NCBI GenBank assembly: GCA_017410325.1
Contig: JAFQRA010000032.1
Span: 1 to 39,781, forward strand
Direction: 5' to 3'
Source of the DNA: Clostridia bacterium
GTDB lineage: Bacteria; Bacillota; Clostridia; Oscillospirales; Acutalibacteraceae
Length of the DNA stretch: 39,781 nt
The notes under the pieces are model-generated. The model ran no database searches, was not told where the DNA came from, and saw nothing but the letters and a program-made list of their open reading frames with translations. The translations under genes and the position numbers were made by a program. Below, one piece after another: positions 28,693 through 32,316 of the stretch. Every line of letters starts with the position of its first letter. Position 1 is the first letter of the stretch.

Positions 28693-28707
28693 TTGTGGGG
28701 TGTAACA

Positions 28708-29283
28708 ATGATTAAATCATTTGCAAATGAAGTTTGCGACTTTTTGCGCAGCTTGCCCGAAGTGAAATCGTGCGGCTTGTACGGCAGCGTAAGCGACGAT
28801 ACATACGACGAATATTCCGATATAGATATAGAAATAGATGTATCGGGTGTCGATAACGGTTTGTTCGCAACCCATATCCCCGATATATTATCGAAAGAAT
28901 TTGATGTGATTTTTTACGATTTTGCACCCAGTCTTGCACCGGACAAGTATGTTGTGTCTTTGGCTTTGAATACAGACAACCCGTTTATGATGGTTGATGT
29001 GGCTTGTACCGCAAATCCGCATTGTGATACGGTATCAAAGCAACAGCTTTCAGCTCTCAATAATCTTTGCGACCATACCTTGAAGGTGTTTGTCGCCAAC
29101 TTAAAGCATTTTTTGCGTGGTGTCGATTGTTACGATGATATTAGCAGAATGTATGGCAGGATATTTCGTGACAGAGATGTTTACGATGAAGAACAGATGC
29201 TCAATGCTGTTTACGAATGGCTGCATGAAAACGCAGAACCAAGACACGAGGAGTATATAGCCCGGTTTGAAGATTATATGTAA
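28708..29283 (+). CDS. Nucleotidyltransferase-fold protein
   Basis: 191 residues. The NTase core motif GLYGSVSDDTYDEYSDIDIEI places Gly-Ser at 26-27 and the metal aspartates at 38 and 40. A later VIFYDF may supply the third acid. The C-terminal half is helical, as in aminoglycoside nucleotidyltransferases and AadK-like proteins, but the substrate is unknown. The ATG at 28708 follows GTGGGGTG by six bases. It probably shares a transcript with the HAD gene. A pair of facing REPs lies 13 bp after its stop. Codon use is more AT-rich than in flanking core genes. Confidence 0.8.
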   Translation: MIKSFANEVCDFLRSLPEVKSCGLYGSVSDDTYDEYSDIDIEIDVSGVDNGLFATHIPDILSKEFDVIFYDFAPSLAPDKYVVSLALNTDNPFMMVDVACTANPHCDTVSKQQLSALNNLCDHTLKVFVANLKHFLRGVDCYDDISRMYGRIFRDRDVYDEEQMLNAVYEWLHENAEPRHEEYIARFEDYM

Positions 29284-29295
29284 TTTATTGATAAC

Positions 29296-29320
29296 GTAGG
29301 GAACGGTCTTGACCGTTCCG
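29296..29320 (+). repeat. REP copy 1 (intact, plus orientation)
   Basis: GTAG (29296-29299) heads the palindrome GGAACGGTC - TT - GACCGTTCC, then G. The flank GATAAC precedes it, as at REP copy 3. The head-plus-hairpin form matches bacterial REP sequences mobilised by RAYT transposases. Confidence 0.85.
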
Positions 29321-29346
29321 CCGTAAAAACGATATGATGGTAAAAA

Positions 29347-29371
29347 CGGAACGGTCAAGACCGTTCCCTAC
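29347..29371 (-). repeat. REP copy 2 (intact, minus orientation)
   Basis: The reverse complement is identical over 25 bp to copy 1. Copies 1 and 2 face each other across 26 bp, forming a 76-bp inverted pair like an enterobacterial BIME. Confidence 0.85.
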
Positions 29372-29395
29372 ATTTGTATTTTTGGATGTGATATT

Positions 29396-29815
29396 TTGAT
29401 AATACGTAATATGTTACCGTCCGATTATGACGATATGATGAAAATGTGGACAAGCTCTCCCGATATCGGGGTTAATCCCGACGATTCGAGAGAGTATATT
29501 GAAAAATTTCTTGTTCGTAATCCGAACACAAACTTTGTTGCTGTTGAAAACGGTAAAATTATCGGAACGGTAATGGCTGGACACGACGGTTACAGAGGTT
29601 ATATACATCACACCTGTGTAGTTGAGGAATTCCGTGGAAACGGTATTGGTGCTTCTTTGGTTAAGCAAGCAGTAGAAGCCGTAAAAGCGGAAGGCATAAA
29701 CAAGGTGTTCTTGGTTGTTTTCAAAACCAATGAAAAAGGCAATGCTTTTTGGGAAAAGCAGGGCTTTAAAATCCGTGAGGATTTATACTATCGTGATCTG
29801 AGAATAAATAATTAA
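29396..29815 (+). CDS. GNAT-family N-acetyltransferase
   Basis: 139 residues, a single GNAT domain. It starts IIRNMLPSDYDDMMKMW, has HTCVVEEFRGNGIGASLVKQAV as the acetyl-CoA loop (R-x-x-G-x-G), and ends with FWEKQGFKIREDLYYRDL. The organisation resembles small RimI-like or antibiotic/polyamine acetyltransferases; the substrate is unknown. The start is TTG 29396, supported by GGATGTG upstream and because the first beta strand (IIRNM) needs it. It lies between the REP pair and REP copy 3, inside the accessory island. Confidence 0.86.
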   Translation: MIIRNMLPSDYDDMMKMWTSSPDIGVNPDDSREYIEKFLVRNPNTNFVAVENGKIIGTVMAGHDGYRGYIHHTCVVEEFRGNGIGASLVKQAVEAVKAEGINKVFLVVFKTNEKGNAFWEKQGFKIREDLYYRDLRINN

Positions 29816-29872
29816 TAAACCTAACATAAAATATATAGCTTTTTATGAAATATATTTAACCTTAATGATAAC

Positions 29873-29897
29873 GTAGGGAACGGTCTTGACTGTTCCG
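29873..29897 (+). repeat. REP copy 3 (one substitution, plus orientation)
   Basis: GTAG (29873-29876) then GGAACGGTC - TT - GACTGTTCC and G; one C-to-T change keeps a G-U pair in RNA. It lies 13 bp upstream of the RAYT start codon, next to its ribosome binding site. Confidence 0.8.
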
Positions 29898-29910
29898 AAA
29901 AGGTGAAAAT

Positions 29911-30384
29911 ATGGAGCTGCCTAAAAGAAAACTGCCGAGACTTTCGGGTTACGATTATTCGAGCGAAAACTATTATTCTGTGACTATATGCACACACAAT
30001 AAAAAATGTATTTTCGGTATGCCTGATAATCCTACGGTTTGCGGAAAAATAGCAGAAGAACATCTGTTGAACATAGAAAAACATTATGAGGGGATACAAA
30101 TAGACAGATATGTCGTAATGCCCAATCACATTCACGCTATCGTTGTAATTGGCTGCGACCCCGAGGCGGAACGGTCAAGACCGTTCCCTACACTGGATAC
30201 TGTACTTGGGCTGTATAAATCAGGTGTTTCTCGTGAAATTCACAAAATATTTCCCGAAATAAAAGTGTGGCAAAAATCATATTTTGATGAAATAATCAGA
30301 AATAAGGAAGCTTATAAAGAAATTTGCCGGTATATAGACGAAAATCCTTTGAAATGGGAAATATCAAAAGGTAATGACCATTAA
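29911..30384 (+). CDS. REP-associated tyrosine transposase (RAYT, Y1/IS200-like)
   Basis: 157 residues of the Y1_Tnp superfamily. It opens with RLSGYDYSSENYYSVTICTHN. The HUH motif lies in VMPNHIHAIVVI (His73, His75). A nucleophile candidate is Tyr102 in LGLYKSGVSREI, and the C-terminal signature is WQKSYFDEIIRNKEAY then YIDENPLKW. Such proteins nick and join ssDNA at GTAG-headed REP hairpins. REP copies 3 and 5 flank the gene, and an intact REP (copy 4) lies inside it, encoding residues 86-94 in frame. Whether this copy is active cannot be judged from sequence, but no stop or frameshift is seen. AGGTG precedes the ATG. Confidence 0.9.
   Translation: MELPKRKLPRLSGYDYSSENYYSVTICTHNKKCIFGMPDNPTVCGKIAEEHLLNIEKHYEGIQIDRYVVMPNHIHAIVVIGCDPEAERSRPFPTLDTVLGLYKSGVSREIHKIFPEIKVWQKSYFDEIIRNKEAYKEICRYIDENPLKWEISKGNDH
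30167..30191 (-). repeat. REP copy 4 inside the RAYT coding sequence
   Basis: The reverse complement is identical over 25 bp to copies 1 and 2. It falls on codons 86-94 of the transposase, read as A-E-R-S-R-P-F-P-T, in the variable loop between the HUH motif and the YKS helix. Confidence 0.85.
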
Positions 30385-30409
30385 AATGTAATCAATGTAA
30401 TTTTATAAC

Positions 30410-30432
30410 GTAGGAACGATCTTGACTGTTCC
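30410..30432 (+). repeat. REP copy 5 (degenerate, plus orientation)
   Basis: GTAG (30410-30413) then GAACGATC - TT - GACTGTTCC: one base is deleted and two are substituted relative to copy 1. The ATAAC flank is retained. It lies 26 bp after the RAYT stop and 38 bp before the DinB gene. Confidence 0.7.
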
Positions 30433-30469
30433 AAAAAGATTGAGCAGGCTTTATTAAAGAGGTGTAACT

Positions 30470-30973
30470 ATGGCTGACGAGTTGGTAAATGCTATAAAGC
30501 AGAATGTCAATGCGTTGTTTACCAATGCCGACATAATGCTTCAAACCTGTGATATGGACTATATACTTTGTGATTTGCCCGTTTGGAAGCACGTTTATCA
30601 TACGTTTCACTCGCTTGACCAATGGTTTATAAATCCCAAAAAGTATAGTGAGCCTGACTTTCATATCGAGGGTTTAAATTCGCTTAATGAGTTCAGCGAA
30701 ATATCTCTTTCAAGAGAACAGCTTTCAGATTATCTTGAAAGCATAAAGACAAAAATTAATGCATATCTTGAAACGCTTAATGACGATATGCTTTCCGAAA
30801 TACCAACGGGATGTAAAACCAACCGTTTGGGTTTGATATTATCTCAATTAAGACATTTTTATGCACATTTGGGTAATATCAATGCAACAACAATAATTGA
30901 AACAAATAAATGGCCTCGTGTGGTTGGTATTACAGGTAAGAGCGGTAAATCAACATCAGGGCTGTTTGAATAA
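30470..30973 (+). CDS. DinB-like four-helix protein
   Basis: 167 residues, predicted all-helical. WKHVYHTFHSLDQWF near 44-58 and LSQLRHFYAHLGNI near 128-141 carry the histidines expected of the DinB/YfiT metal site. The family includes metal-dependent thiol S-transferases and damage-induced proteins; the substrate is unknown. The C-terminus ends in a short Gly/Ser/Lys tail. GAGGTG lies seven bases upstream of the ATG. It is the last gene of the accessory island, visibly AT-richer than the DUF512 gene that follows. Confidence 0.75.
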   Translation: MADELVNAIKQNVNALFTNADIMLQTCDMDYILCDLPVWKHVYHTFHSLDQWFINPKKYSEPDFHIEGLNSLNEFSEISLSREQLSDYLESIKTKINAYLETLNDDMLSEIPTGCKTNRLGLILSQLRHFYAHLGNINATTIIETNKWPRVVGITGKSGKSTSGLFE

Positions 30974-31008
30974 CGCAGTATTAATGCATATAAAGGCAGG
31001 TGACGTGT

Positions 31009-32316
31009 ATGTCGGTTAAAATTTCAGGCGTGGAACACGATTCAATTCTCAATAAAAAAATATCCGCAGGGGACACGCTTGTTGCCGTAAATTCCCACGA
31101 AATCAACGATGTGCTTGATTACCGTTTTTACACGAGCGCCTGCAAATTAAAGCTCGAAATCGAAACAGAAAAGGGTAAACGCCGCACCGTTAAGGTCAAA
31201 AAAGGCGAGTATGACGATTTGGGGCTGTGCTTTGAAACCTACCTTATGGACAAGCACCACTCCTGCAAAAACAAGTGCATTTTTTGCTTTATCGACCAGA
31301 TGCCCAAAGGAATGCGTGAAAGCCTCTATTTTAAGGATGACGATTCCCGTCTTTCCTTCCTTTTCGGCAATTACATAACCCTTACAAACCTCACGGACAA
31401 GGACATTGACCGCATTATTGAAATGCACATAAGCCCCGTCAACGTTTCCGTGCACACGATGAATCCTGCGCTTCGTGTTGAAATGATGAAAAACCCGAAT
31501 TCGGGCACATCACTTCGCTATCTTAACCGATTAGCCGGGGCGGGAATAAAGCTCAACACACAGCTTGTTTTGTGCCCCGGTATTAATGACGGCAAGGAGC
31601 TTGAATTTTCGCTTTCGGAGCTTGGCAAGCTCTATCCCGCAGTGCAGAGTATAGCCTGCGTGCCCGTGGGGCTTACAAAGCACCGTGAGGGTCTGCCTCA
31701 CCTTGATGCTTATAACAAAGAAACCGCATCAAGCGTGATTGATACGGTGGACGATTTCAATATTCATTTCAAATATTACAATAACGAAACCATAGCCTAT
31801 GCGGCGGATGAGTTTTATCTTGCCGCCCAAAGGGAAATACCCTCAGCCGATTATTACGGCGACTATCCTCAGCTTGAAAACGGCGTTGGTATGTGGCGCT
31901 TGCTCAAGGAAGAATTCACTTCTGCCCTTGAAGCAAACGACTTTACGCCCGAAAAGGGCAGGAAGATTTCCGCCGTTACGGGTACAGCCGCATATCCTTT
32001 GATAAAAGAGCTGGCAAATTCCCTTGAAATAAGGTATAATATAAAAATAAACGTATATGAAGTGAAAAATGCTTTCTTCGGCGAAAGCGTTACCGTTGCA
32101 GGTCTTCTGACCGGTCAGGATATTCTGGCGCAGCTTAAGGACAGGGATTTGGGAACGGAGCTTATAATTCCCGACACTGCCCTGCGTGACGGTGAAGAGG
32201 TTTTTCTGGACGATATGACCGTGGCTCAGCTGAGCGCCGCTCTGGGAGTGCCCGTTATCTCCTGCAAGGCGGACGGATATGAGCTGCTTGACAAATTTTT
32301 GGGAAGGTGTGATTGA
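31009..32316 (+). CDS. DUF512 radical SAM protein with N-terminal PDZ-like domain
   Basis: 435 residues. An N-terminal PDZ-like segment (about 1-75) precedes the radical SAM motif C86-x3-C90-x2-C93 within CKNKCIFCFIDQMPKGMR. The DDSRLSFLFGNYITLTNL block is highly typical of the DUF512 Fe-S oxidoreductases. The C-terminal part (about 300-435) contains VTGTAAYPLI and VPVISCKADGYELLD. The function is unknown; the gene is usually beside der in Clostridia, as here (1 bp gap). The ATG at 31009 has AGGTG seven bases upstream. Confidence 0.9.
   Translation: MSVKISGVEHDSILNKKISAGDTLVAVNSHEINDVLDYRFYTSACKLKLEIETEKGKRRTVKVKKGEYDDLGLCFETYLMDKHHSCKNKCIFCFIDQMPKGMRESLYFKDDDSRLSFLFGNYITLTNLTDKDIDRIIEMHISPVNVSVHTMNPALRVEMMKNPNSGTSLRYLNRLAGAGIKLNTQLVLCPGINDGKELEFSLSELGKLYPAVQSIACVPVGLTKHREGLPHLDAYNKETASSVIDTVDDFNIHFKYYNNETIAYAADEFYLAAQREIPSADYYGDYPQLENGVGMWRLLKEEFTSALEANDFTPEKGRKISAVTGTAAYPLIKELANSLEIRYNIKINVYEVKNAFFGESVTVAGLLTGQDILAQLKDRDLGTELIIPDTALRDGEEVFLDDMTVAQLSAALGVPVISCKADGYELLDKFLGRCD

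Follow-up and report, generated by a model that had tools for sequence, protein, structure and literature searches.

The DNA analysed here, a contig of 39,781 nucleotides from a Clostridia bacterium (the window), carries at 29911-30384 on the forward strand an open reading frame of 157 amino acids that is a RAYT (TnpA-REP) gene by its family, its residues and its modelled fold. The protein matches the NCBIfam model REP_Tyr_transpos significantly (1.5e-16) while missing, with 60.6 bits, the curated cut-off of 80, and its predicted fold is that of a Y1 HUH enzyme like structure 4er8, identified in the literature as E. coli TnpA-REP, at 20% identity, a likeness taken from the VIA-align list. A sequence search of solved structures with the protein, and a search of a defence-gene library, returned no match. 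H73 and H75 of the HUH motif (30127-30135, forward strand), the catalytic tyrosine Y141 within YIDENP (30331-30333, forward strand) and N145 are invariant across 54 aligned relatives; Y102 varies among them. The original prediction of HUH residues and a YKS tyrosine therefore stands for the histidines and fails for the tyrosine, since Y102 is the one in YKS and Y141 is the conserved one. This domesticated transposase gene is single-copy: the other RAYT loci of the genome show 35-46% identity to it, and one short piece shows 50%. An IS200/IS605 element was ruled out on the basis of the single copy and of Y---N in place of Y---Q.

The gene is surrounded by GTAG-headed palindromes (REPs), for which we searched the window by pattern match with up to three mismatches, using as a control 100 dinucleotide shuffles, which gave no match. 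Two exact matches form an inverted pair (29296-29319, forward strand, and 29348-29371, reverse strand). A further copy with one mismatch (29873-29896, forward strand) lies in sense orientation directly 5' of the ribosome-binding site and ATG of the RAYT gene, and an exact match on the reverse strand (30168-30191) lies inside the gene and inverted with respect to it. The fifth row returned by the search is the 29348 copy read on the opposite strand and not an extra copy. The fifth palindrome, 3' of the gene (30410-30432, forward strand), is absent from the rows with up to three mismatches and was recognized by sequence and fold; it has 23 bases, one short, and a weak stem, folding as a single strand at -2.9 kcal/mol as against -8.3 for the in-gene copy, and its counterpart at the equivalent relative position in a congener (G004) is a perfect REP. 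The five palindromes are thus where they were predicted to be, four strong and one real but degenerate; on reading the sequence, three are identical over 25 bp as claimed, and the inverted copy within the gene is likewise borne out. The pair at 29296 and 29348, with starts 52 bp apart, has a spacer of 28 bp that differs from that of the dispersed pairs compared with it below, although as single-stranded DNA the pair is predicted to fold into one long hairpin (z -10). In the structure model the in-gene copy encodes residues 86-94 (AERSRPFPT), a loop between the strand at 73-80 and the helix at 95-113.

The genome-wide search that had been proposed, allowing three mismatches, found the palindrome elsewhere, with 28 rows in the 2.67 Mb genome and none for the reversed pattern; a looser pattern gave 32 rows and one for its control. 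The claim of a RAYT amid GTAG-headed REPs is accordingly upheld, with about 30 copies in the genome. Nine of the 28 rows, three of them inside the window, are identical over 24 bases. Eighteen rows are arranged as nine inverted pairs, heads outward, whose two starts are separated by 45-46 bp, and the looser pattern adds one pair with starts 47 bp apart; these pairs are built like REPINs, in which a short spacer separates two REPs of opposite orientation, and are dispersed over the genome. Among the copies in the genus the stem covaries: 13 cells changed on both sides as against 2.7 in shuffled data, and a covariation score of 0.182 as against 0.082, neither value being reached in 500 shuffles, although two of the five measures were unremarkable (pair number, 133/500; further pair types, 46/500).

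Many of the dispersed pairs share longer flanks and adjoin other REP families. One other family, that of the REP carried by the RAYT at contig C11, accounts for 17 rows in this genome, including two inside that gene. We also noted a mixed pair (L026, on G000:C34) whose arms are of the GGCAGGGGGCTTGCTCCTGCC family on one side and of the GGAACGCTC type on the other, which would fit a single enzyme handling both REP types. Many copies have a TATATCAAT-like motif ∼20-25 bp beyond the GTAG, on its outer side (flanks of L007, L009, L025, L030 and others), suggesting a larger mobile unit. At one site (G000:C5) we did not find an empty site precise to the REPIN: the gap was 206 bp, as against 25 bp in congener G005, and was about equally wide against G002 (33 bp there). 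Since the repeats that hold these pairs are longer and common to other REP families, and since this empty site is 206 bp wide, the RAYT need not have moved the dispersed pairs.

Among 22 rows classed as single, nine stand just ahead of a ribosome-binding site and start codon read in the same direction (L004, L010, L013, L042, L043, L046, L069, L070 and the window copy at 29873-29896); some of the 22 are single only through a degenerate partner, and the nine amount to ∼6 sites when orthologs are counted once. This placement is what would be expected if the REPs were mainly RNA elements, dispersed hairpins that control translation or transcription. We consider that explanation improbable, since a TnpA-REP substrate is marked by just such GTAG heads, by inverted pairing and by an HUH enzyme nearby, and since the explanation leaves the in-gene pair described below unaccounted for.

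We examined the relation between copy number and RAYT presence in 11 genomes of the genus (G000, the window's genome, to G010), of which eight were matched by the RAYT query. Counting both strands, REP rows numbered 28 in G000, 20 in G001, 3 in G002, 8 in G004, 5 in G005, 18 in G006 and 3 in G007, and none were found in G003, G008, G009 or G010. G000, G005 (protein 100% identical) and G004 (79%) each hold the window RAYT or a close relative of it, and G001 has only a remnant. In G006, an assembly that is 86% complete, the nearest RAYT is 53% identical and carries a different REP. All five rows of G005 lie within 3 kb of its RAYT gene, and three of the eight in G004 lie at its RAYT locus. The prediction had tied the palindrome's abundance to the presence of this RAYT, and this is partly contradicted by G001 and G006, which hold 20 and 18 rows without an intact close RAYT; its statement that this enzyme mobilised these copies is not supported as worded, as the counts do not track the RAYT across the 11 congeners. 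For the same reason we rejected copy number as proof of RAYT activity. That the window RAYT dispersed the REP copies now in the genome is a reading in whose favour stand the nine rows identical over 24 bases and the observation that REPs inside RAYT genes are generally of the same family as those near the gene. We nevertheless regard it as somewhat doubtful, because the counts do not follow the gene, because the dispersed pairs differ in spacer from the window pair and sit in longer repeats, and because the copies in G005, where the protein is identical, are all local.

The last of these points is tempered by the alignment of G000 with G005 (contig C23), in which a block from 28.7 to 31.04 kb has ∼10 mismatches in 2.34 kb, while the 100-bp bins flanking it reach 12-20 mismatches, some having only 0-5. 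The pattern fits a recent exchange of 28700-31040 between the two species, and given the near-identical block within diverged flanks G005 may have held it too briefly for the REPs to spread. The counts as a whole fit a history in which REP copies outlived a lost RAYT, combined with a recent arrival of the block in G000 or G005. The outliving of a lost RAYT by its REPs is expected from work on pseudomonads (PMC3686654).

The window RAYT lies in an accessory segment (29296-30989) that comprises the REP pair, a GNAT acetyltransferase gene (29396-29815, forward strand, start codon uncertain; Acetyltransf_1, 8.1e-21), the REP-RAYT-REP unit and one further gene, and that is absent from the orthologous locus of G006, which is contiguous and without a RAYT gene. 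The GNAT gene is possibly cargo of this REP-edged segment. The G006 alignment stops one base before the first REP (29296), its last dozen bases aligning loosely, and on the right the gap ends (30989) away from any REP. An exact REP-bounded transfer of the segment was considered and lowered in standing, since the block shared with G005 (∼28.7 to 31.04 kb) overruns the REPs, since no REP marks 30989 and since the alignment is loose at the left edge. The REP-RAYT-REP unit (29867-30438, forward strand) is the one long part of the locus that shows homology (76%) to the place where G004 has its RAYT, a different site in the genome. There, REP-RAYT-REP is followed by a GNAT gene; at the corresponding place G000 and G006 have a solo REP followed by the counterpart GNAT gene, whose identity was confirmed by Pfam in G000 and G004. 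In G001, G005, G007 and G010 only 3 to ∼115 bp separate the flanks of this locus, and REP and RAYT are both absent. Four genomes were left unscored, G002 having the flanks on separate contigs and G003, G008 and G009 showing the left flank only. The intergenic DNA beside the solo REP aligns poorly, so that either gain or loss would fit. In G001 and G007 an inverted pair 5' of the GNAT gene (L264 1385-1460 and L256 2107-2182) has a spacer identical at 21 of 28 positions to that of the window pair (29296-29371), with both arms belonging to another REP family. From the alignment we take this to be an in-place switch of REP family outside genes.

Inspection by eye of the window's genome showed an in-gene GTAG hairpin at each of its five RAYT loci and two at four of them, one of these four having a broken frame. 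At one locus (L036/L038, G000:C32:66839-67323) the RAYT reading frame changes near the first in-gene REP. For a wider comparison we took the best 80 of 491 confirmed contig matches, from a scan that favours close kin, together with genus and family genomes; the resulting 168 matches reduced to 147 distinct sequences, 114 of them full-length (spanning the model). In-gene GTAG hairpins are present in 100 of the 114, with 178 such hairpins in total as against 3 to 17 for each of the other permuted heads; the head TAGG was excluded from this control since it reads the same repeats as GTAG. Exactly one forward hairpin before the HUH motif and one reverse hairpin after it were found in 68 genes (70 when extra hairpins are allowed), a hairpin only after HUH in 16, only before it in eight, none in 14, and other layouts in eight, one of which is the reverse layout. 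The exact pair occurs in 64 of 92 genes that we placed in Bacillota by their record titles or by kinship to the window and in four of the remaining 22, three of these four lacking a phylum assignment. By alignment, site 1 lies between the first strand and the first helix (the beta1-alphaA loop) and site 2, inverted with respect to it, in the beta3-alphaC loop; the window gene keeps only site 2. Many of the relatives' REPs have a GGG stem foot, whereas that of the window REP is GGA.

In the 70 genes with a bracketing pair, the two arms are identical at 18.4 of 20 bases within a gene as against 9.6 between genes (0 of 2000 permutations). The own arm is the best or tied match in 51 of the 70; for the other 19 a better match to site 1 is found in site 2 of a different gene, because REP families are common to several genes. 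Both arms fall in one cluster in 67 genes where 8.8 are expected, the families having been drawn by average linkage at a threshold of our choosing, as single linkage collapsed them. The partial correlation of site 1 and site 2 similarities, allowing for core identity, is 0.91 (2415 non-independent pairs). On a quick tree of the 70 genes, site 1 changes family 23 times, site 2 21 times and the joint label 24 times, from which we derive about 20 shared family switches. Closer RAYT cores share REPs, so that REP family follows RAYT relatedness. In flanks of up to 8 kb, REPs cognate to the gene have 0.98 further copies per locus as against 0.0375 for REPs of other genes, and 41 of 100 loci have any further copy. 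For 69 of 100 genes the adjoining 400 bp are free of a matching REP, some flanks being cut by contig ends, and the in-gene copies are thus often the only REPs at hand. Judged on these sequence comparisons, the in-gene REP copy is no accident.

A very improbable explanation is that the in-gene hairpins are features of the protein, the loop residues being needed and the palindrome a by-product. The frame is conserved, with GTA GGG in 75 of 78 genes at site 1 and 71 as against 19 at site 2, and the window copy encodes what is modelled as a loop. However, one of the three frames at site 1 would contain a stop codon, so that the bias is partly forced; at site 1 the 78 nine-residue peptides include 58 distinct ones, and at site 2 the 90 include 74; and random synonymous recoding restores a hairpin in 50 of 3360 cases as against 168 of 168 natural ones, which had been chosen for the hairpin.

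Fourteen RAYT loci, chosen for fragmented matches, were examined for loss of the HUH-coding segment. Eight of them join the N-terminal part straight to the C-terminal part, with the HUH segment gone: four have a single GTAG...CTAC palindrome at the junction (L266, L269, L272, L273), one has a longer imperfect palindrome (L268), and three have an open frame without a REP at the junction (L265, L267, L270). These last three HUH-less genes might be kept for some use. The cleanest relic is L272/L280 of G001, the ortholog of the intact L049 of G004, in which 165 bp are gone exactly between the in-gene REPs and 1.6 kb of upstream sequence is 89.9% identical. When 397 family genomes were queried with HUH-less proteins, the four query genes were the sole end-to-end HUH-less ones among the matches listed. 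Sixteen further RAYT loci picked from that search gave no gene passing the test for HUH loss, although at two of them (L310 and L311) part of the stretch before HUH is gone. In the decayed window RAYT of G001 (L264 ∼1925-1945, on G001:C8) the upstream REP is present by its start alone, joined directly to sequence just past the place of the in-gene REP, so that the 5' part of that gene is gone between two REPs. An in-frame self-disarming switch was considered and lowered in standing: just 11 of the 70 genes would keep their reading frame after the predicted HUH deletion, which speaks against a switch by design. To account for the loss and its scar, slippage between the repeated arms of the hairpins is enough; enzyme action is possible.

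That the deletions take the form predicted by slippage also bears on a broader alternative, in which host recombination (gene conversion, or template switching between hairpins) homogenises any two copies with the RAYT uninvolved. Short palindromes are hot spots of deletion and template switching, which favours it; on the other hand, tracts of 24 bp are short for RecA conversion, and REP family goes with RAYT relatedness, as recognition would predict. On balance we find this alternative rather unlikely.

Our preferred reading, which we think probable, is that the window locus is a REPtron, a single-copy RAYT with cognate GTAG hairpins, belonging to a lineage with a REP inside the transposase gene. 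The typical gene of its Clostridia relatives has a REP in each of two loops, beta1-alphaA and, in inverted orientation, beta3-alphaC, which places the HUH-coding segment between hairpins like the middle of a large REPIN. Binding, cutting and joining of the GTAG hairpin are established for E. coli and other TnpA-REP, and by analogy we infer that the window RAYT would bind GTAG and its hairpin as single-stranded DNA, cut beside the hairpin and join the strand elsewhere. REPs would spread mostly as inverted pairs and persist after RAYT loss, a course with which the counts agree. The comparison shows that a change of REP type takes in both REPs of the gene, probably since the enzyme or host recombination overwrites existing REPs. 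Two side effects of this layout also emerge from the comparison: the HUH segment is lost between the in-gene REPs, and REP-RAYT-REP alternates with a solo REP. The agent may be the RAYT, replication slippage or recombination.

A bolder and, in our estimation, unlikely form of this interpretation is that these are inside-out REPtrons, with the recognition element within the enzyme gene, switches that overwrite both REPs, an excisable HUH segment, and REP-edged units that are gained and lost. If it were true, substrate and enzyme would be inseparable, since the recognition element would be part of the gene; HUH excision would leave a disarmed gene with a fused REP; and units of REP, ribosome-binding site and gene would come and go at REPs like folded-DNA gene cassettes. 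The locus bears on how a REP and its RAYT remain a fitting pair as the two evolve, and on whether RAYT genes ever move. REP and RAYT are here fused in one gene, with ∼20 switches in a sample of 70, and the allelic states (empty, solo REP, REP-RAYT-REP and HUH-less) are amenable to experiment.

Among known systems, the inverted pairs resemble REPINs, which reportedly go back to Bertels and Rainey in 2011. We know of no in-gene REPs in E. coli TnpA-REP. As in the REPIN definition given in PMC8049555, the REPs are paired in inverted orientation with GTAG heads outward; the dispersed pairs here differ in sharing longer flanks and sitting in composite repeats, and there are ∼30 rows where that source gives 69-235 REPINs for E. 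coli. REPs inside other genes have been published (PMC3733652), and mobility of tnpA-REP is described as lacking evidence (Corneloup 2021, PMC8266576). The window gene is most like TnpA-REP subclass 2.4 as described by Quentin et al. (2018, PMC6006769), which has the motifs NHIH, WQ and Y---NP, a variable beta3-alphaC insertion, REPs in frame within tnpA between HuH and Y, and GTAG and double-foot REPs in several phyla. NHIH, which fits the table's NH[IFV]H, and WQ are present in the window RAYT, YIDENP carries E where the consensus YIxNNP has N, and the in-gene REP at 30168-30191 (residues 86-94) has the described position. The beta3-alphaC insertion was judged by these authors to lie away from the DNA. 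Their subclass table gives no beta1-alphaA insertion, whereas 70 of our 114 genes have a second, inverted REP before HUH, and the stem foot given for one of the two REP types of the subclass has three consecutive G-C pairs, whereas the window REP has two; because of this mismatch we place the gene close to subclass 2.4 and do not file it as a member. In-gene REPs in tnpA (PMC6006769) and REP switching beside orthologous RAYTs (PMC3686654) are thus already known. In the literature passages searched, we came across no mention of another REP site within the gene, of in-gene REPs that switch in concert, or of a loss of the HUH segment between them. The closest parallel to the switching is the REP orthoswitch of pseudomonads and stenotrophomonads (Nunvar et al. 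2013, PMC3686654), in which orthologous RAYTs likewise have different REP classes. As described there, the switched REPs flank the gene; here they lie inside it, so that a switch rewrites two loops of the enzyme.
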